From positions 1 through 64,000 of the forward strand of contig CANRLS010000001.1 of NCBI GenBank assembly GCA_947631545.1: a stretch of DNA of 64,000 nucleotides. Reading direction: 5' to 3'. Under the pieces are notes generated by a model. The model saw only the letters and a program-made list of their open reading frames with translations, searched no databases and was not told the DNA's origin. Numbering within the stretch: the first letter of the stretch is position 1; every line of letters begins with the position of its first letter. The position numbers were made by a program, and so were the translations under genes. Source of the stretch: an uncultured Atopobiaceae bacterium. GTDB lineage: Bacteria; Actinomycetota; Coriobacteriia; Coriobacteriales; Atopobiaceae. Of this stretch, positions 23,347-43,962 are shown piece after piece.

Positions 23347-24030
23347 CTACGCCTCGATGCCGAGGGCGTCGACCCACTCCTTGACCTCGTCGGCTGTGGC
23401 CGAGCTTGGGAAGCGCCTTCCCTCCTGCCATTCGCCGGTGCCGCACATCTCGGCGAGGTCGGCGGCGCTCGTGCCGATGCCCGAGCTCGCCGAGGTGCAG
23501 AAGGGATAGACGGTCTTGCCGTTGAAGTCGTTGCCGGTGACGAAGCGATCCACCGGCCAGGCGGCGCCTCCCCACCAGATGGGATAGCCGACGAAGACGG
23601 TCGTGTAGGCGCTGAAGCCATCCGGCGTCTCCTGCACGAGCTCCACATCCCGCTGGGACGAGTCATCGTGCTCGGCGTTCACTCGCGACGAGTCATCGGT
23701 CCAGTCGAGCTCCTCCTCGGTGTAGGGCTTGACCGGTTCGATCTCGAAGAGGTCCGCCCCGAGGTCGGAGGCGATGTCCTCGGCCACCCTCTTCGTATTG
23801 CCCGTCGCCGAGTAGTAGGCGACGAGGACGGGGCTCGCGGGCGAGGTCTCGGCACCCGCCGCTTCGCCGCTGGATCCTTCGGCGGTCTCGGCCGTCGCCT
23901 CGGCGCCGTCCGCCGAGCCCATCGAAGCGCCAGACGCCCCGCACCCTGCGAGCATGAACGTGCCGGCAAGGGCCGAGATTCCGAAGAAGCCCCTGCGCGA
24001 CAGGATCTTGTCCCTCGTCAGATCAGCCAT
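23347..24030 (-). CDS. Exported flavodoxin-like lipoprotein
   Basis: 227 residues. The N-terminus has a Tat-type SRRGFFG motif, a hydrophobic stretch and lipobox LAGC (Cys near residue 30), then a linker rich in Ala, Glu, Ser and Gly. The flavodoxin fold starts at VLVAYYSATGNTKRVAE, whose T/S/N loop binds FMN phosphate, and GYPIWWG is the second FMN loop. This is the flavodoxin_4 type found in many anaerobes, here anchored outside the membrane, where it probably carries electrons to or from partner reductases. I choose the ATG at 24030, which follows GGAGGGGCATCCCC. A shared operator lies 40-61 bases upstream. Confidence 0.85.
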   Translation of the reverse strand: MADLTRDKILSRRGFFGISALAGTFMLAGCGASGASMGSADGAEATAETAEGSSGEAAGAETSPASPVLVAYYSATGNTKRVAEDIASDLGADLFEIEPVKPYTEEELDWTDDSSRVNAEHDDSSQRDVELVQETPDGFSAYTTVFVGYPIWWGGAAWPVDRFVTGNDFNGKTVYPFCTSASSGIGTSAADLAEMCGTGEWQEGRRFPSSATADEVKEWVDALGIEA

Positions 24031-24069
24031 GGGGATGCCCCTCCACTCCATTCCGATGCATATCTGCGG

Positions 24070-24091
24070 ATAGATTGCCGACGTTACGTCA
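24070..24091 (-). promoter_or_regulatory. Shared redox-gene operator, copy A
   Basis: ATAGATTGCC followed by the inverted repeat GACG-TTA-CGTC and an A. The same pattern occurs at 25843-25863 and 26736-26757, each just upstream of a minus-strand redox gene. Read on the minus strand, ATCTATCC after the repeat can serve as the -10, so the repeat would overlap the -35 position. Confidence 0.7.
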
Positions 24092-24276
24092 CCTATGGTA
24101 CAGGCTTCGACGCCCGGGCACGACCCTCATGCCGCTCAGGAGCACCGAATCGATGGTGGCCGTCGAGCCGACGACGCCCTCCCTCGAAGCCCTTCGCCTC
24201 AGCGCTGCGACGTCATCTGTGCACGGTTCGTCCAGATGGCTCATCATCGAGGGGAATCGCGATGAGAGGAGCTCCC

Positions 24277-24906
24277 ATGCACGTTCTCATGATCTGCGGC
24301 AGCCCCAAGCCCCGCGGAAACACCATGCGCTTGCTCCAGACGGTGGCGTCCGAGCTCGAGGCCCTCGGCGTGACGAGCGAGATCGCGAGCATCGGCCGCG
24401 ATCCCATCGCCGGCTGCATGGGCTGCGGCGCCTGCAGCCGAAACGGCCACCACTGCATCGTGGGCGACGAGCTGGTGGAGGGCCTGAAGGAGCGGATGGC
24501 CTCCGCCGACGCGCTCGTCGTGGGCACGCCCGTCTACTACGCGCACCCCAACGGCGCGCTCCTCGCCTGCCTCGACCGATTCTTCTATTCGGCCGACTCG
24601 GCGATCTTCCGCACCAAGCCCTATGCGGCCATCGCCGTCGCGCGACGGGCGGGCACCGTCGCCAGCTTCGACGTGCTGAACAAGTACCCCACCATCATGG
24701 ATATGCCCGTCGTGGGCAACCGCTACTGGAACGATGCCTTCGGACGCGCGCCCGGTGAGGTCGAGGCCGACGAGGAGGGTATGGCCATCATGCGCCAGCT
24801 CGCCCGGAACCTCGCCTGGCTCCTTCGCTGCATCGAGGCCGGGCGGGCCGCGGGCGTTCCCGATCCCGCCCCGCACGATCCCGTCATGACGAACTTCGTG
24901 CGCTAG
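24277..24906 (+). CDS. NADPH-dependent FMN reductase / iron-sulfur flavoprotein
   Basis: 209 residues, flavodoxin-like fold. MICGSPKPRGNTMRLL is the phosphate-binding start, GCMGCGACSRNGHHCI (Cys 48, 51, 54 and 61 approximately) is the cluster seen in iron-sulfur flavoproteins of anaerobes, and GTPVYYAHPNGALLACLDR the second flavin loop. Such proteins pass electrons between ferredoxin-type donors and flavins, often in defence against oxygen. The ATG at 24277 has GAGAGGAG 7 bases upstream. It is divergent from the flavodoxin gene with the shared operator between them. Confidence 0.87.
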   Translation: MHVLMICGSPKPRGNTMRLLQTVASELEALGVTSEIASIGRDPIAGCMGCGACSRNGHHCIVGDELVEGLKERMASADALVVGTPVYYAHPNGALLACLDRFFYSADSAIFRTKPYAAIAVARRAGTVASFDVLNKYPTIMDMPVVGNRYWNDAFGRAPGEVEADEEGMAIMRQLARNLAWLLRCIEAGRAAGVPDPAPHDPVMTNFVR

Positions 24907-25079
24907 CAGAGAGCGCGGAGCCGGCTGCGCCGCGAGGCGTCCCTTCGCCTACTCCCAAGCAAGGCGCTGCCCCGACGAGTGCGGCGGATGTGGGCGTTCG
25001 TCGACCCGAGCCTACGAATGGGCCCGGTTGGGCATCTTCCCCATGAGCGATCGCGGGATCCATCGAGGAAGGATTCGCC

Positions 25080-25382
25080 ATGGCATACGACGACGAGCTG
25101 GAGCAGAGCCCCGAGCAGGAGCACGAGGGCCAGATCTACGACCGAAAGACGGGCGAATGGGTCACGGAGCGCCAGATGAAGCACCGTCGCCACCAGCGCC
25201 AGGTGAAGACGGCCGAGAAGATCGGCGCCGAGGTGGGCAAGGGCATGGGATTCGTGGCGAGCGAGACCTTCGACGCCGCCGAGCACGTGGCCAAGGCGGC
25301 CGCGAAGCTCGAACGGCGCCGTGAGGCGTTCGACACCCGCGAGGAGCTGCGCCGCGAGCAGGAAGGCGATGGGGCCGAGTAG
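25080..25382 (+). CDS. Small charged protein of unknown function
   Basis: 100 residues, highly charged and probably helical: EQEHEGQIYDRKTGEWV at the start, then a basic MKHRRHQRQVK stretch, an Ala/Glu helix, and an Arg/Glu-rich C-terminal helix (KLERRREAFDTREELRREQ). No membrane segment or Cys. GAGGAAGGATTCGCC precedes the ATG, so it is likely a real gene. I do not recognise a family. Confidence 0.65.
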   Translation: MAYDDELEQSPEQEHEGQIYDRKTGEWVTERQMKHRRHQRQVKTAEKIGAEVGKGMGFVASETFDAAEHVAKAAAKLERRREAFDTREELRREQEGDGAE

Positions 25383-25397
25383 ATCCTTCCGCTTGGG

Positions 25398-25817
25398 TTA
25401 GGCGAGCGACTCGTAGGACTCGGCGTCCACGGGCTCCAACCACTCGGTGGAGAAGTTCTCGCCCGGCACCTCGACGGAGAGATGCGCGAACCAGCTGGTG
25501 GGCGAGGCGCCATGCCAATGCTTGACCTCGGGCGGGATGTTGACGACGTCGCCCGGGCCCATGGCGATCGCGTCCTCCCCCTCGGCCTGGTAGTAGCCGC
25601 GGCCGCCGACGCAGACGAGGATCTGGCCGCCGCCGGTATCGGCGTGGTGGATATGCCAATGGTTGCGGCAGCCCGGCTCGAAGGTCACGTTGGCGATGCC
25701 CACCTGCTCCTCCGAGAGCCGGGCGAGGTAGCTCTGCCCGTCGAAGTACTCGCCGAAGGGGTTGGGCTCGCCGATGGGGAAGATGATCGTCTTCTGGAAC
25801 TCGTCCTTGGTCATCAT
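25398..25817 (-). CDS. Cupin-domain protein
   Basis: 139 residues forming a single cupin barrel. Motif 1 is CRNHWHIHHADTGGGQILVCVGG, with three His as metal ligands and a Gln or Glu position, and motif 2 is GDVVNIPPEVKHWHGA. This small class often sits with aldo/keto reductases, flavodoxins and metallo-hydrolases in anaerobes, where its substrate is undefined. GAGGAGCAGACC precedes the ATG. The shared operator lies only 26 bases upstream of its start, overlapping the end of the metallo-hydrolase gene, so it has its own promoter. Confidence 0.85.
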   Translation of the reverse strand: MMTKDEFQKTIIFPIGEPNPFGEYFDGQSYLARLSEEQVGIANVTFEPGCRNHWHIHHADTGGGQILVCVGGRGYYQAEGEDAIAMGPGDVVNIPPEVKHWHGASPTSWFAHLSVEVPGENFSTEWLEPVDAESYESLA

Positions 25818-25842
25818 GGTCTGCTCCTCGCTCTCTCTCCGC

Positions 25843-25863
25843 TAGATAAGCGACATTGTGTCA
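25843..25863 (-). promoter_or_regulatory. Shared redox-gene operator, copy B
   Basis: TAGATAAGC followed by GACA-TTG-TGTC and an A. It keeps the flank and the spacing of copies A and C but with a changed half-site (GACA instead of GACG), altered symmetrically on both arms. Such paired change supports a real dimer-binding site. Confidence 0.6.
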
Positions 25864-26718
25864 TATCGCAACGGAATCGCCATCAGGATTCGAATCCAAA
25901 GCGAGCGCCTCGCCCGGCGCCAGCGCATGGACGCGCCCGGCGTTGACCACCGCCCCGGCGAGCTTCACCGGATCGCCGTTAAAGGTGTTCCAATCCGGCG
26001 CATCGACGGAACCCCAGTGGATGAGGACGAGCTCGGCCTCGGGATAGGCGTTCGCGAGCTCGACCGCGCCGTCGAAAGTGATGTGCCAACCGTTGTCGGC
26101 GAAGTCCATGAAGATGAGGTCGGGCTGGGAGGGCATGGCCAGCTGCTCGGGCAAGAGCCGCGAGTCGCCGGGGGTCCATACGGTGCCGTCGGGCGTCTCG
26201 ACCCAGAAGCCGCAGTAATCCTCGAGCTTCCATTCGCGATAGGCCCACTTGGCCACCTCGTTCTGCCAGTTGTGCTCGGCCGGCGTGAGGGTCACCCGGA
26301 GATCGCCCACGGCGAAGGCCTCGCCGATGTCGTGGCCGACGGCGTCGAGGCCCTCCTCTCGCATGACCTCGGCCACGTACTGCGGGGCGTGGAAGACGTC
26401 GCAGACGCCCTTGAGGTCTCCGCAGGTGTCCCGCGAGAAATGGTCGTTGTCGATGTGGGTGATGAGGATGGCGTCCACATGGGGCACGTCCGCGACCGCG
26501 AGCGGCGGCTCGAAGAGGAGCGGCATGTCGAAGCCCTCGAGCAGAGGATCGATGAGGATGGTCGTGCCGCGGCTGTTCACCATGAGGCTCGCGCTCCCGA
26601 GCCAGCGCACCTCGGTACGGTCGATCGGCCCGAAGGCCTCGGGCCCCACCTGCCTCACGACGGCCGGCATGGCCTGTCCCTTCTCGCTGTACGCCACGGA
26701 CTCCCTGATGTCGCCCAT
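25861..26718 (-). CDS. Metallo-beta-lactamase-fold hydrolase (UlaG-like)
   Basis: 285 residues. THIDNDHFSRD is the HxxxDH zinc motif; further ligands are likely in PAEHNW and TPGDSRL. The protein belongs to the L-ascorbate-6-phosphate lactonase-like group, whose members hydrolyse diverse substrates in the cytoplasm; no signal peptide is present. GGAAGCGGAGGGCGA precedes the ATG. The shared operator begins 18 bases upstream. It is divergent from the CDGSH gene, and the cupin gene follows on the same strand. Confidence 0.85.
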   Translation of the reverse strand: MGDIRESVAYSEKGQAMPAVVRQVGPEAFGPIDRTEVRWLGSASLMVNSRGTTILIDPLLEGFDMPLLFEPPLAVADVPHVDAILITHIDNDHFSRDTCGDLKGVCDVFHAPQYVAEVMREEGLDAVGHDIGEAFAVGDLRVTLTPAEHNWQNEVAKWAYREWKLEDYCGFWVETPDGTVWTPGDSRLLPEQLAMPSQPDLIFMDFADNGWHITFDGAVELANAYPEAELVLIHWGSVDAPDWNTFNGDPVKLAGAVVNAGRVHALAPGEALALDSNPDGDSVAI

Positions 26719-26735
26719 TCGCCCTCCGCTTCCGT

Positions 26736-26757
26736 ATAGATTGCTGACGTAGCGTCA
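26736..26757. promoter_or_regulatory. Shared redox-gene operator, copy C
   Basis: ATAGATTGC followed by the perfect inverted repeat TGACG-TAG-CGTCA. It lies between the divergent metallo-hydrolase and CDGSH genes and could control both. On the minus strand it is followed by ATCTATACGG, a plausible -10. Confidence 0.7.
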
Positions 26758-26830
26758 TTATGACGGTCGGTCCCATTTGGTTCATCATGAACCGAGACGG
26801 CAGCGCGCTCCGCACGGGAAGGGAGCGAAC

Positions 26831-27655
26831 ATGGCGAGCGGACCCCGCATCACCATCATCGAGGGCGGCCCCTACAAGGTGGAGGGCCACGTGCCCCTCA
26901 GCGAGGACGCCATCGTCTCCACCCACGGGCGCTACCCCATGCAATACCGCCGGGTGCGCGACTACGCCACCGAAGGCAGGGACGGCTACCTGCTCTGCCG
27001 CTGCGGGCGCTCCAAGGCCATGCCCTTCTGCGACGGCACCCACGCCGCCATCGGCTTCACGGGCGAGGAGACGGCCTCCCGCGAGCCCTATGCCGAGCGC
27101 GCCGAGCGCTACAGCGGCCCCAGGCTCGCGCTCCTGGATGACGATCGCTGCGCCTACGCCCGCTTCTGCCATCGGCTGGGCTCCGAGGTGTGGACGCTCA
27201 CCGAGCGCGCGGCGGACGAGCGCACCGAGAGGAGCGCCATCGCAGCCGCCTGGGAGTGCCCCACGGGGCGCCTCACCAGCTTCGACCGCCTGACGGGCGA
27301 GCCCTACGAGCAGGGGTTCGAACCGGGCATCGTCATCCTGGAGGATGTGGAGGAGAGGGCGAGCGGACCCCTCTTCGTGCGCGGGGGCATCCCGCTCATC
27401 GGCGCCGACGGCTTCGAGTACGAGGTGCGGAACCGCTACGCCCTCTGCCGCTGCGGACACTCGAGGGACGTGCCCTTCTGCGACGCCTACCACATCAGCT
27501 ACCGCTTCTACGACGGAAGCGAGAGCTTCGAGGGGCTCTGGGGAGGCGAGGATCCCACCATCGAGGCGCTTCCCGGCGAAGGCGAGCTCGTCGAGCCGCC
27601 CCACATGCGGCGGGGCGGTTCGGTTGCGAGTGATGCGAAGCGGCCGGAGGGCTGA
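26831..27655 (+). CDS. Twin CDGSH-type iron-sulfur protein
   Basis: 274 residues with two CDGSH-type 2Fe-2S sites: CRCGRSKAMPFCDGTH near residue 56 and CRCGHSRDVPFCDAYH near 216. Each has the three Cys plus one His ligand pattern. The first has the CDG of the family and the second reads CDA. Between them lies a domain with DDDRCAYARFCH and EVWTLTE, related to the Fer4_19-like domain often found with CDGSH proteins. Function: electron transfer or redox sensing in the cytoplasm; exact role unknown. GGGAGCGAAC precedes the ATG. The shared redox operator lies 74-95 bases upstream. Confidence 0.88.
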   Translation: MASGPRITIIEGGPYKVEGHVPLSEDAIVSTHGRYPMQYRRVRDYATEGRDGYLLCRCGRSKAMPFCDGTHAAIGFTGEETASREPYAERAERYSGPRLALLDDDRCAYARFCHRLGSEVWTLTERAADERTERSAIAAAWECPTGRLTSFDRLTGEPYEQGFEPGIVILEDVEERASGPLFVRGGIPLIGADGFEYEVRNRYALCRCGHSRDVPFCDAYHISYRFYDGSESFEGLWGGEDPTIEALPGEGELVEPPHMRRGGSVASDAKRPEG

Positions 27656-27684: not shown

Positions 27685-28803
27685 CTATTCGAAGTGCTCG
27701 GCCACCAGCTGCAGGTCCTCGATGATGGGCAGGTGCTGGGGGCAGACGCTCTCGCACTGGCCGCAGGCGATGCAGTCCGAGGCCTTGCCGGCGTTTTGGG
27801 CCACGATCTCGTAGTTGGTGAAGTTCACCGTCCAGCCCTTCTGATCCAGATCCTCGCGCATGTCCTCGTTGTAGAGCGAGAAGTACTCGGGGATCGCGAT
27901 CTGCATGGGACAGCCCTCGGTGCAGTAGTGGCAGGCCGTGCAGGGGATGGCCGTCTGGTCGTTGATGATCCGCGCCGCCTCGAAGCACATCTCCCTCTCA
28001 TCCTCGGTGAGGGGCGTGAAGCGCTCCATGAAGGAGAGGTTGTCCTCCATCTGCTCGAGGTTCGACATGCCGCTGAGCACCACCTCGACGCCCTCGAGGC
28101 TCGCAGCGAAGCGTATGGCCCAGCTCGCGGGGCTCATGGACGGATCATGGGCGCGGAAGAGCGCCTCCACCTCGGCAGGCACGTTGGCGAGCGTCCCTCC
28201 CTTCACGGGCTCCATGACGATGATGGGCTTGCCGTGGGCGCGCGCGACCTCGTAGACCTCGCGGGAGTGAACCCACGGGCTCTCCCAGTCGAGGTAGTTC
28301 AGCTGCAGCTGCACGAACTCCATCTCGGGATGGATGGTGAGGATCTGGTCCAGGAGCTCCGGAGTGTCGTGGAACGAGAAGCCCGCGTGGCGCACGAGCC
28401 CCTGGGCCTTCTTCTCGAGCACCCAGTCGAAGACCTTGAACTCCTCGTACTTGGGGTACATCGCGGCCTCGACGCCGTGGAGGAGGTAGTAGTCGAAGTA
28501 GCCGGCGCCGGTCTTCTCCAGCTGCTCGTCGAAGACCTTGTCGCGGTCTTCGAAGGAGTCGAAGAACCCGGCATGGAGCTTCGTGGCCAGGGTGAAGCTA
28601 TCGCGCGGGTGACGCTCGACGATCGCCTCCTTGGCCACGCGCTCGCTCGCGAAGCCGTTGTACATCCATGCCGTGTCGAAGTAGGTGAAGCCGGCCTCCA
28701 AGAAGCGATCCACCATGGCCTCCACCTGCGGCACGTCGACGGCCGCGGCATCGGCGGGGTCGGTCTGGGGCAGTCGCATGAGTCCGAATCCGAGCTTGGC
28801 CAT
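27685..28803 (-). CDS. Aldo/keto reductase with C-terminal ferredoxin domain
   Basis: 372 residues. An aldo/keto reductase barrel (residues 1-270) with FDTAWMYNG (catalytic Asp, Tyr) and KLHAGFF (Lys) is followed by two 4Fe-4S motifs, CTACHYCTEGCP near 290 and CIACGQCESVCP near 345. This fused form is common in anaerobes and probably links carbonyl reduction or the reverse to ferredoxin-type electron flow. GAGAGGAATGACC places the ribosome site before the ATG at 28803 rather than the one 6 bases earlier. It lies 68 bases downstream of the DUF3737 gene. Confidence 0.9.
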   Translation of the reverse strand: MAKLGFGLMRLPQTDPADAAAVDVPQVEAMVDRFLEAGFTYFDTAWMYNGFASERVAKEAIVERHPRDSFTLATKLHAGFFDSFEDRDKVFDEQLEKTGAGYFDYYLLHGVEAAMYPKYEEFKVFDWVLEKKAQGLVRHAGFSFHDTPELLDQILTIHPEMEFVQLQLNYLDWESPWVHSREVYEVARAHGKPIIVMEPVKGGTLANVPAEVEALFRAHDPSMSPASWAIRFAASLEGVEVVLSGMSNLEQMEDNLSFMERFTPLTEDEREMCFEAARIINDQTAIPCTACHYCTEGCPMQIAIPEYFSLYNEDMREDLDQKGWTVNFTNYEIVAQNAGKASDCIACGQCESVCPQHLPIIEDLQLVAEHFE

Positions 28804-40915: not shown

Positions 40916-41929
40916 CTAGCCCTCCCAAGGCGTGACGCTGTCAAGGGCCTCATCGAGCGTGATCCGCTTGCCGCCGTTGTTGAGGTCGATGAGCACGTAG
41001 CGGTCGTTGCCCATGCCGAGCTCCTTCATATACGAGAGCTGGCGGAGGCCATGGCGGCTCTGCATGCGCTCCTTGAGGTCGTCGGGGTACTGCTCCGGCA
41101 GCGCGTAGACGAGGTCCACGCAAGCCTGGTCGGCCGCGAGGATGTCCGTCGAGGAGACGATGCCGACGTTGGGCATGACGACCGGCGTGGCCCCGACGCC
41201 CGCGCAGTCGCAGTCCACGCTCATGTTGCGCATGACGTTCACGTAGCAGATCTTCTTGCCGAAGTGCCCCACCACGGATTTGCAGGACTCGGTCATGCGC
41301 TCCATGAGCTCCTCTTCGTCGATGTCCCACATGTCATCCGAGCCGGGCGTCGTGTGGATCCACTTCTTGCCCTCTTTGCCGTCGGCGCAGCCGATGCCGA
41401 TGTTCTTGTTGGAGCCCCCGAAGCCGCCCAGCACATGGCCCTTGAAGTGGGTGAGCGCGACGAAGGAGTCGTAGTCGAGGAGGTTCTTGCCGACGCTCAT
41501 CTCCTCGAAGAAGTTGCCGTCCCCGACGGGGAGCATCGCGGTGCCCTCGGCGTCCATGATGTCCACGGGGCAGAAGGTCCAGCCGTTCACCTTCAGCGTC
41601 TCGAGGTGCTTCTCGGTGGTGTCGCGATCGCCCACGTAGTAGGTGTTGGTCTCGACGATGGTGCCGTCGGGGATGTCGGTCTCCATGAGCGCCTGGACCC
41701 AGGCGTGGGGGATGATGTTGGGCCCGTGCTTCTCGCCGGTGTGGAGCTTCACGGCCACCTTGCCGTCGATCTCGCCGGAGACCGCCTCGTAGGCCTTCTT
41801 CAGTCCCTCAGCCGAGAGGTCGCGGGTGAAGTAGACGATGGACTCGTTGCCGGTGCGCCCCTCGGGACCCTGGTACTGGTCGCCGCCGGTCGCAGGCTGG
41901 TAGTCGGGCTTGATGGCGCTGGCACCCAT
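40916..41929 (-). CDS. DUF362 domain-containing protein
   Basis: 337 residues. The core (residues 40-310) has the DUF362 pattern, with VAVKLHTGEKHGPN, ETNTYYVGDRDTT, THFKGHVLGGFGGSNKNIGIGCA and a Cys pair in VDCDCAGVG. The ferredoxin domain that many DUF362 proteins carry is absent. The family is widespread in anaerobes with an unproven redox role, possibly binding an iron-sulfur cluster by its Cys residues. GGGGAGGGGAGAATCC lies before the ATG at 41929. Single gene with its own terminator. Confidence 0.85.
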   Translation of the reverse strand: MGASAIKPDYQPATGGDQYQGPEGRTGNESIVYFTRDLSAEGLKKAYEAVSGEIDGKVAVKLHTGEKHGPNIIPHAWVQALMETDIPDGTIVETNTYYVGDRDTTEKHLETLKVNGWTFCPVDIMDAEGTAMLPVGDGNFFEEMSVGKNLLDYDSFVALTHFKGHVLGGFGGSNKNIGIGCADGKEGKKWIHTTPGSDDMWDIDEEELMERMTESCKSVVGHFGKKICYVNVMRNMSVDCDCAGVGATPVVMPNVGIVSSTDILAADQACVDLVYALPEQYPDDLKERMQSRHGLRQLSYMKELGMGNDRYVLIDLNNGGKRITLDEALDSVTPWEG

Positions 41930-43092: not shown

Positions 43093-43380
43093 TCAATAGG
43101 CTAGGCTGCCGCAGTATTCGTGGAGATCGTCGGTGCAGCCGCCGGAGACCGCCGCCAGCTCCTCGTCCACGAGCTCGCCCTCGGCGGGAACCTCGAAGAC
43201 GAGGTCGTCCTCGGTGAGCGTGAAGCCGTTGTCGTTCGCGAGGGCGACGATTCGAGCGGCTACCTCGGGGCGATCCGCCTCGCTGGCGGCGTTCAGCTCG
43301 TTCACGAGGGCGGTCGCCTCGCCCATCAGCTCGTCGTCTTCGGAGGCGGCCTTCAGGATGGCCTTGAGGTTCTCGTTCAT
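43093..43380 (-). CDS. Nif11-type RiPP precursor peptide A
   Basis: 95 residues. The leader (1-81) is acidic and helical: NENLKAILKAASEDDELM, then AARIVALANDNGFTLTEDDL, the alternating pattern of Nif11-like leader peptides, ending VDEELAAVSGG. The GG is the expected cleavage site of a C39-type peptidase. The core is CTDDLHEYCGSLAY: 14 residues with two Cys. GAAGGGA lies 6 bases before the ATG at 43380; an ATG six bases earlier and a TTG are less well placed. The leader, ribosome site and upstream hairpin are identical to those of precursor B, but the core is not. No modifying enzyme or exporter lies next to it. Confidence 0.8.
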   Translation of the reverse strand: MNENLKAILKAASEDDELMGEATALVNELNAASEADRPEVAARIVALANDNGFTLTEDDLVFEVPAEGELVDEELAAVSGGCTDDLHEYCGSLAY

Positions 43381-43512
43381 GGTCATTCCCTTCAATGGTA
43401 CCTAGCGGGATGCGGTGGAGATCCTGGGCCGGATGGGAACCGGGAGGGCGCCACCGCATCCCCCTCTTGCTGATAGAGGATAGTTATTCACTATCCTGCA
43501 CGTCGATGATGA
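43152..43512. repeat. Direct repeat copy 1 (450-base period)
   Basis: This 361-base stretch matches 43602-43962 with only three differences that I can find, all in the last 30 bases. It covers the leader-coding part of precursor A, its 5' region and hairpin, and a relic of the last codons of the zinc dehydrogenase gene (the TATCCTGCA-CGTCGATGATGA end). The relic shows that the duplicated unit began in the 3' end of that gene. Confidence 0.9.
43407..43462 (-). promoter_or_regulatory. Leader hairpin upstream of precursor A
   Basis: GGGATGCGGTGG and CCACCGCATCCC form a perfect 12-base stem around a 32-base loop, ending 26 bases before the precursor start codon. There is no T-run after the stem. 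It could stabilise the mRNA, act as an attenuator or mark a transcript start region. Confidence 0.6.
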
Positions 43513-43539: not shown

Positions 43540-43830
43540 TCAAAAGACCAATCCTTCGTGGATTTGTTCGCAGTGATCACCGCATCCGCCGCCAGCGACG
43601 ACCGCCAGCTCCTCGTCCACGAGCTCGCCCTCGGCGGGAACCTCGAAGACGAGGTCGTCCTCGGTGAGCGTGAAGCCGTTGTCGTTCGCGAGGGCGACGA
43701 TTCGAGCGGCTACCTCGGGGCGATCCGCCTCGCTGGCGGCGTTCAGCTCGTTCACGAGGGCGGTCGCCTCGCCCATCAGCTCGTCGTCTTCGGAGGCGGC
43801 CTTCAGGATGGCCTTGAGGTTCTCGTTCAT
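43540..43830 (-). CDS. Nif11-type RiPP precursor peptide B
   Basis: 96 residues. The leader is identical to that of precursor A up to VDEELA, then VVAGG. The core after GG is GCGDHCEQIHEGLVF: two Cys, two His and no Ser or Thr, so lanthionine formation from its own core is excluded. Thioether bonds made by radical SAM enzymes, disulfides or metal binding remain possible. The start ATG at 43830 has the same GAAGGGA ribosome site. In transcript order the zinc dehydrogenase comes first, then B, then A, then the leaderless remnant. Confidence 0.8.
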   Translation of the reverse strand: MNENLKAILKAASEDDELMGEATALVNELNAASEADRPEVAARIVALANDNGFTLTEDDLVFEVPAEGELVDEELAVVAGGGCGDHCEQIHEGLVF

Positions 43831-43962
43831 GGTCATTCCCTTCAATGGTACCTAGCGGGATGCGGTGGAGATCCTGGGCCGGATGGGAACCGGGAGGGCG
43901 CCACCGCATCCCCCTCTTGCTGATAGAGGATAGTCATTCGCTATCCTGCACATCGATGATGA
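43602..43962. repeat. Direct repeat copy 2 (450-base period)
   Basis: Counterpart of 43152-43512. Its last 29 bases are the genuine 3' end of the zinc dehydrogenase gene. Identity between the copies stops a few codons before the GG motif, so the core-coding parts are outside the conserved block. Confidence 0.9.
43857..43912 (-). promoter_or_regulatory. Leader hairpin upstream of precursor B
   Basis: Identical to the hairpin at 43407-43462: a 12-base perfect stem GGGATGCGGTGG/CCACCGCATCCC with a 32-base loop, lying between the zinc dehydrogenase stop and the precursor start. A smaller hairpin GGATAG-CTATCC spans the dehydrogenase stop codon at 43929-43947. Confidence 0.6.

Follow-up and report, generated by a model that had tools for sequence, protein, structure and literature searches.

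The question raised by this locus is whether one short inverted repeat, present three times within 2.7 kb, is an operator through which a single regulator controls several redox genes, and which protein would bind it. The window analyzed here is the whole stretch of 64,000 nucleotides from an uncultured Atopobiaceae bacterium. A preliminary description had proposed one operator at the promoters of three minus-strand genes, encoding an exported flavodoxin, a metallo-hydrolase, and a cupin, and all three of its sequences were found in place (24070-24091, 25843-25863, and 26736-26757). The genes and the sites are collected in Table 1.

Table 1 Redox genes, dyad sites and adjoining sequences of the window, with the strict dyads found elsewhere in the same genome.
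Feature	Coordinates	Strand	Remarks
Exported flavodoxin	23347..24030	-	Twin-arginine signal and lipobox; Flavodoxin_4, Pfam E 2e-40
NADPH-dependent FMN reductase	24277..24906	+	FMN_red, Pfam E 3e-26
Cupin_2 protein, (R)-mandelonitrile lyase-like	25398..25817	-	
Metallo-beta-lactamase-fold hydrolase	25861..26718	-	Lactamase_B_2, Pfam E 9e-25
Twin CDGSH iron-sulphur protein with Fer4_19	26831..27655	+	zf-CDGSH, Pfam E 4e-32
Aldo/keto reductase (AKR), C-terminal ferredoxin domain	27685..28746	-	Syntenic in sister species
Extension after dyad 1	24070..24079	-	GGCAATCTAT; possible -10 region, outside the operator; absent at other dyads
Dyad site 1	24080..24091	-	TGACGTAACGTC; outer base G on one side; 5' of the exported flavodoxin
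Dyad site 3	25852..25863	-	TGACACAATGTC; 5' of the cupin
Extension after dyad 2	26736..26744	-	GCAATCTAT; possible -10 region, outside the operator; absent at other dyads
Dyad site 2	26745..26757	-	TGACGCTACGTCA; strict 13-bp dyad; between the hydrolase and CDGSH genes
Strict dyad, contig C43	C43:3827-3839		
Strict dyad, contig C59	C59:280-292		

Read on the minus strand, site 1 is TGACGTAACGTCGGCAATCTAT (24091-24070; TGACGTAACGTC-GGCAATCTAT), site 2 is TGACGCTACGTCAGCAATCTAT (26757-26736; TGACGCTACGTCA-GCAATCTAT), and site 3 is TGACACAATGTCGCTTATCTA (25863-25843; TGACACAATGTC-GCTTATCTA). Sites 1 and 2 are identical at 19 of 22 positions. The element shared by all three is the dyad TGAC[A/G]-N3-[C/T]GTC. 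An additional half-site, CGTCA, lies 3 bp further upstream of dyad site 2. The distance from site to start codon is 39 nt for the flavodoxin, 17 nt for the hydrolase, and 25 nt for the cupin, in agreement with the 17-40 bases first reported. The flavodoxin gap was measured from the ATG at 24030, which is preferred because GGAGGGG precedes it; a start at 24051 would shorten the gap to 18 nt. The divergent FMN reductase and twin-CDGSH genes are arranged at sites 1 and 2 as described, with site 1 at the far end of the region shared with the FMN reductase, and it also holds that no regulator gene adjoins the sites.

The preliminary description had read the symmetry as that of a dimer site, and this reading gained support. 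The two arms vary together, from GACG/CGTC to GACA/TGTC, across the sites and across species, and this covariation points to a symmetric protein site. The first three bases of site 3, TGA, are the stop codon of the hydrolase gene, so that arm is also under coding constraint. No recognizable -35 box is present at the window sites, which makes the promoter geometry guesswork. A -35/-10 reading of the sites was rejected on account of inconsistent spacing.

Other elements were noted in the window. A second perfect palindrome, GGTTCATCATGAACC, is located at 26779-26793, between the CDGSH and hydrolase genes. At the same place the sister species carry GGTGC-N4-GCACC (L138:4248 and L054:1432), with changes matched on both arms. 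The matched changes make this palindrome a candidate operator or hairpin, better conserved than dyad sites 1-3. Further along, 43093-43395 and 43540-43845 encode two near-identical Nif11-like leader peptides, which have GG motifs and cysteine in their tails. They are possibly precursors of a modified peptide, and small genes resembling them also occur in the sister loci L196 and L197.

The operator had originally been drawn to include the extension ATAGATTGC, and this part did not hold. The extension lies outside the dyad, is exact in sites 1 and 2 only, and is missing from all other copies found. The 22-base motif with the extension was rejected as the operator, as its matches in the own genome are sites 1 and 2 only; no further copy with up to 3 mismatches is present there. 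When its 20-base core was searched for in 140 genomes of the family, the two-mismatch matches were scattered and pointed to no conserved promoter site, and a reversed control also matched widely. Among all GTDB contigs, one match was found, within a Limnocylindrus gene. The extension may be promoter sequence, and the operator is better defined without it.

The likeness of sites 1 and 2 was compared with chance. For 51 window genes, the 120 bp upstream of each were put through 40 dinucleotide shuffles, and pairs alike at 19 or more of 22 positions arose in 3 of them. The unshuffled window holds another, unrelated pair that is equally alike. By itself, the likeness is only borderline above chance. 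Because it is not decisive, clustering is the better evidence. The dyad core TGACRNNNYGTC has 18 distinct copies in the 1.74-Mb assembly, and for 18 positions placed at random, the probability of finding any three in a 2.7-kb span is P = 0.006. Several of these 18 loose dyads lie outside genes or at their edges with no evident redox link, near argR, a channel, an antitoxin, and others.

The strict dyad TGACRNNNYGTCA is present in 3 copies in the assembly, every one outside genes. The preliminary description had proposed a genome scan for further sites upstream of redox genes, and both additional strict copies proved to be intergenic and near such genes. The copy on contig C43 lies 43 nt 5' of the ATG of an aldo/keto reductase with a ferredoxin domain, and the aldo/keto reductase of the window is a paralogue of this protein. 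The copy on contig C59 lies upstream of a Tat-exported DUF362 lipoprotein, whose N-terminus matches a sister-species DUF362 protein at 64%; a second aldo/keto reductase ends beside it. The description as a small local regulon needs some correction: at least two members, those on C43 and C59, are unlinked, and in the sister species the dyad is retained before the DUF362 operon but missing from the window genes.

A spacer control was performed on 952 kb of the own genome. Strict dyads were outside genes in 3 of 3 cases at the 3-bp spacer versus 8 of 34 at other spacers. The 12-base form was outside genes in 11 of 13 cases at the 3-bp spacer versus 77 of 479 at other spacers. The control is imperfect in that a 9-bp spacer likewise yields three intergenic strict dyads and spacers in codon phase 0 are generally depleted inside genes.

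The sister species of the genus were then compared. Three genomes of the genus share the hydrolase-cupin pair in synteny, at 86-90% identity. No dyad is present at the hydrolase or cupin promoters in G011, G012, and G014, none is present 5' of the FMN reductase in four sister genomes, and 188 kb around the hydrolase and cupin orthologues from other genera within the family contain no strict dyad. The flavodoxin has an orthologue in G013 only (L114, contig C25), which has lost the exported N-terminal part. A PhD/VapC-like toxin-antitoxin pair is located directly 5' of that orthologue. The sister promoters of the window genes lack the dyad, which indicates that the window sites are species-specific. 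It is well established that regulons gain and lose members from one lineage to another (PMC5343134), so missing conservation at these promoters is not by itself evidence against function. It does reduce the confidence in function.

Conservation of the dyad is found at another promoter. In G012 and G014, two perfect dyads stand exactly 34 bp apart before a DUF362/AKR operon; no intact DUF362 gene was called between the tandem dyads and the AKR gene in G014. When the C59 promoter of the own genome was aligned with the sisters without gaps, dyad 1 was kept (GTTGACR...YGTCA), the differences between TGACGCAACGTCA and TGACACSGTGTCA being symmetric, and a second, degenerate dyad was seen at the spacing of the sister tandem pair.

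One objection to an operator is that there is no regulon at all, and that similar promoter elements, with TGAC in a -35-like box and CAATCTAT as the -10 region, were combined with chance symmetry. The shuffled pairs agree with this objection, as do the loss of the sites at orthologous promoters in G011, G012, and G014 and the overlap of TGAC with -35 hexamers at some of the other loose dyads, for example that of argR. However, it does not account well for the clustering, for the position of both additional strict copies at redox promoters, or for tandem dyads kept across three species with symmetric changes. We regard the absence of a regulon as unlikely, a small redox regulon as likely, and sites 1-3 together with the C43 and C59 copies as probably a real operator set.

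The candidate for the binding protein comes from the same conserved operon. In G012, the gene order downstream of the tandem dyads is DUF362 - AKR - TetR - FMN reductase. The TetR gene is at L196:5907-6548 in G012, where it is intact, and at L197:7426-8058 in G014. The two proteins are 91% identical, with TetR_N and TetR_C_34 above the cut-off in both. The palindromic operator candidate upstream of this operon is kept between species, in G012, in G014, and as counterpart dyads on the own contig C59. A search of 952 of the 1740 kb (55%) of the own genome gave no TetR orthologue, and the operon would continue beyond the point inside DUF362 at which C59 breaks off. The missing regulator may be located in this assembly gap. 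A further point against this candidate is that the sister species with the TetR gene have no dyad at their hydrolase, cupin, or FMN reductase promoters. The break (L198:1-167) is possibly due to the DUF362 paralogues at 40919-41929 of the window and at L286:10357-11241.

The mechanism that we infer has a single dimeric factor recognizing TGAC[A/G]-N3-[C/T]GTCA at all sites. The factor would be the TetR protein of the sister DUF362 - AKR - TetR - FMN reductase operon. Bound between the -35 region and the start codon, it would block the promoters, causing repression, and would be released by an electrophile or an oxidant, as with NemR. That the inducer is oxygen or an electrophile is a guess. 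The regulon would consist of flavin, iron-sulphur, and aldo/keto-reductase genes. The proposed targets are the exported flavodoxin, hydrolase, and cupin of the window, the C43 aldo/keto reductase, and the C59 Tat-exported DUF362 lipoprotein; the CDGSH protein and the FMN reductase are possible divergent targets. The claim that one dimeric TetR-family repressor binds all these sites and runs a small redox regulon is given slightly less than an even chance, and it is put forward tentatively.

Two other regulator families have to be weighed against the TetR protein. The regulator could be a MerR-family protein whose C-terminal part holds membrane segments and cysteines. Such a protein would untwist the promoters of the redox genes and so activate them. 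A dyad lies directly 5' of such a gene (MerR_1 domain, E 4e-23) in G011, G012, G013, and G014, and the proteins are 90-93% identical. A dyad within a -35/-10 spacer of 19-20 bp is the classical MerR promoter arrangement, and the merR promoter has the perfect dyad GTGACG-N3-CGTCAC within a 19-bp spacer (TTGCTC-19-TGGAAT in G011, G012, and G014). This dyad in the promoter of L168 is putatively autoregulatory. In G013, the core TGACGTTGCGTCA before the MerR gene is identical to the own C59 dyad. However, no MerR orthologue is present in the whole own assembly (98% completeness), where only distant MerR proteins resembling HspR and FtsR were found; the window sites 1-3 have no -35/-10 hexamers at MerR spacing; and the strict dyads at redox promoters in the four sisters occur only at the TetR-bearing operon. 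We consider control by this MerR protein unlikely. The domain arrangement of the MerR protein encoded at L168:1549-2304 is unusual: its sequence points to two membrane segments and, at the C-terminus, a CxxC-like cysteine region.

A LysR-type regulator acting on 13-bp T-N11-A dyads, now unlinked and once a neighbor of the redox cluster, appears less probable still. The T-N11-A pattern is matched by TGACG-N3-CGTCA, and a distance of 34 bp between tandem sites is suitable for a LysR tetramer. In G014, the redox cluster is flanked by two LysR genes (L138, contig C4), and in G012 one adjoins the FMN reductase; the LysR genes of the own genome number only three, on C61, C118, and C36. LysR proteins usually bind their own promoter region, yet for these three genes and for the G014 copies that region carries other palindromes. 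With no dyad in their promoters, the LysR genes are weaker candidates. Apparent own-genome counterparts of the flanking G014 genes are on the unlinked contigs C61 and C36, which indicates that the redox cluster has been rearranged.

The distribution of the dyads could reflect rewiring of one regulator within one genus. Its ancestral target would have been the operon of the exported DUF362 protein, the AKR, and its own gene, and in this species it would have newly taken over the neighboring cluster of exported flavodoxin, CDGSH, hydrolase, and cupin genes. We rate this as doubtful. If true, it would define an uncharacterized export-linked redox stress response. The regulon would tie the DUF362 lipoprotein, exported flavodoxin, CDGSH protein, cupin, and aldo/keto reductases to one signal. 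These genes are poorly understood, and the regulons of this bacterial group are little described in the literature searched. The sister TetR and MerR genes are concrete candidates for binding.

The system was compared with known regulators. The MerR-family regulators ZntR, MerR, CueR, SoxR, and NmlR resemble the sister merR case in the dyad placed in the 19-bp promoter spacer. The sister MerR differs in that it scores far below every named subfamily (for ZntR, 75.5 versus 168 bits), has C-terminal membrane segments, and is absent from the own assembly. RutR, a TetR-family protein of pyrimidine use with the half-site TTGAC, gives the highest family score with the sister TetR's DNA-binding domain (NCBIfam E 2.8e-9, residues 8-84). 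The score is only 37 bits against a cut-off of 368, the ligand domain is TetR_C_34, and no pyrimidine genes are nearby. The RutR site is a palindrome of about 16 bp (PMC10891134).

The likeness to NemR of Escherichia coli and AltR, both repressors of the TetR family acting in thiol stress, lies in a TetR gene co-transcribed with reductases, an inverted-repeat operator at its own promoter, and oxidoreductase targets. Acting through an inverted repeat, NemR represses both its own gene and a reductase transcribed with it, and for AltR of Pantoea ananatis additional imperfect boxes are found at other genes (PMC13178969). The NemR subfamily responds through a conserved redox-active cysteine, and no profile named NemR is among the NCBIfam matches of the sister TetR. 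The operator sequence is different, that of AltR being CAATCTAC-N6-GTAGATTG. The AltR/NemR half-site CAATCTAC was considered and rejected, for CAATCTAT is present at sites 1 and 2 but has no inverted partner, and the same holds for CAATCTA beside these two sites. The targets differ as well, as they include here a DUF362 lipoprotein and an exported flavodoxin. Nothing in this system is categorically new: it is an ordinary kind of bacterial regulon, and this kind of system is well known.
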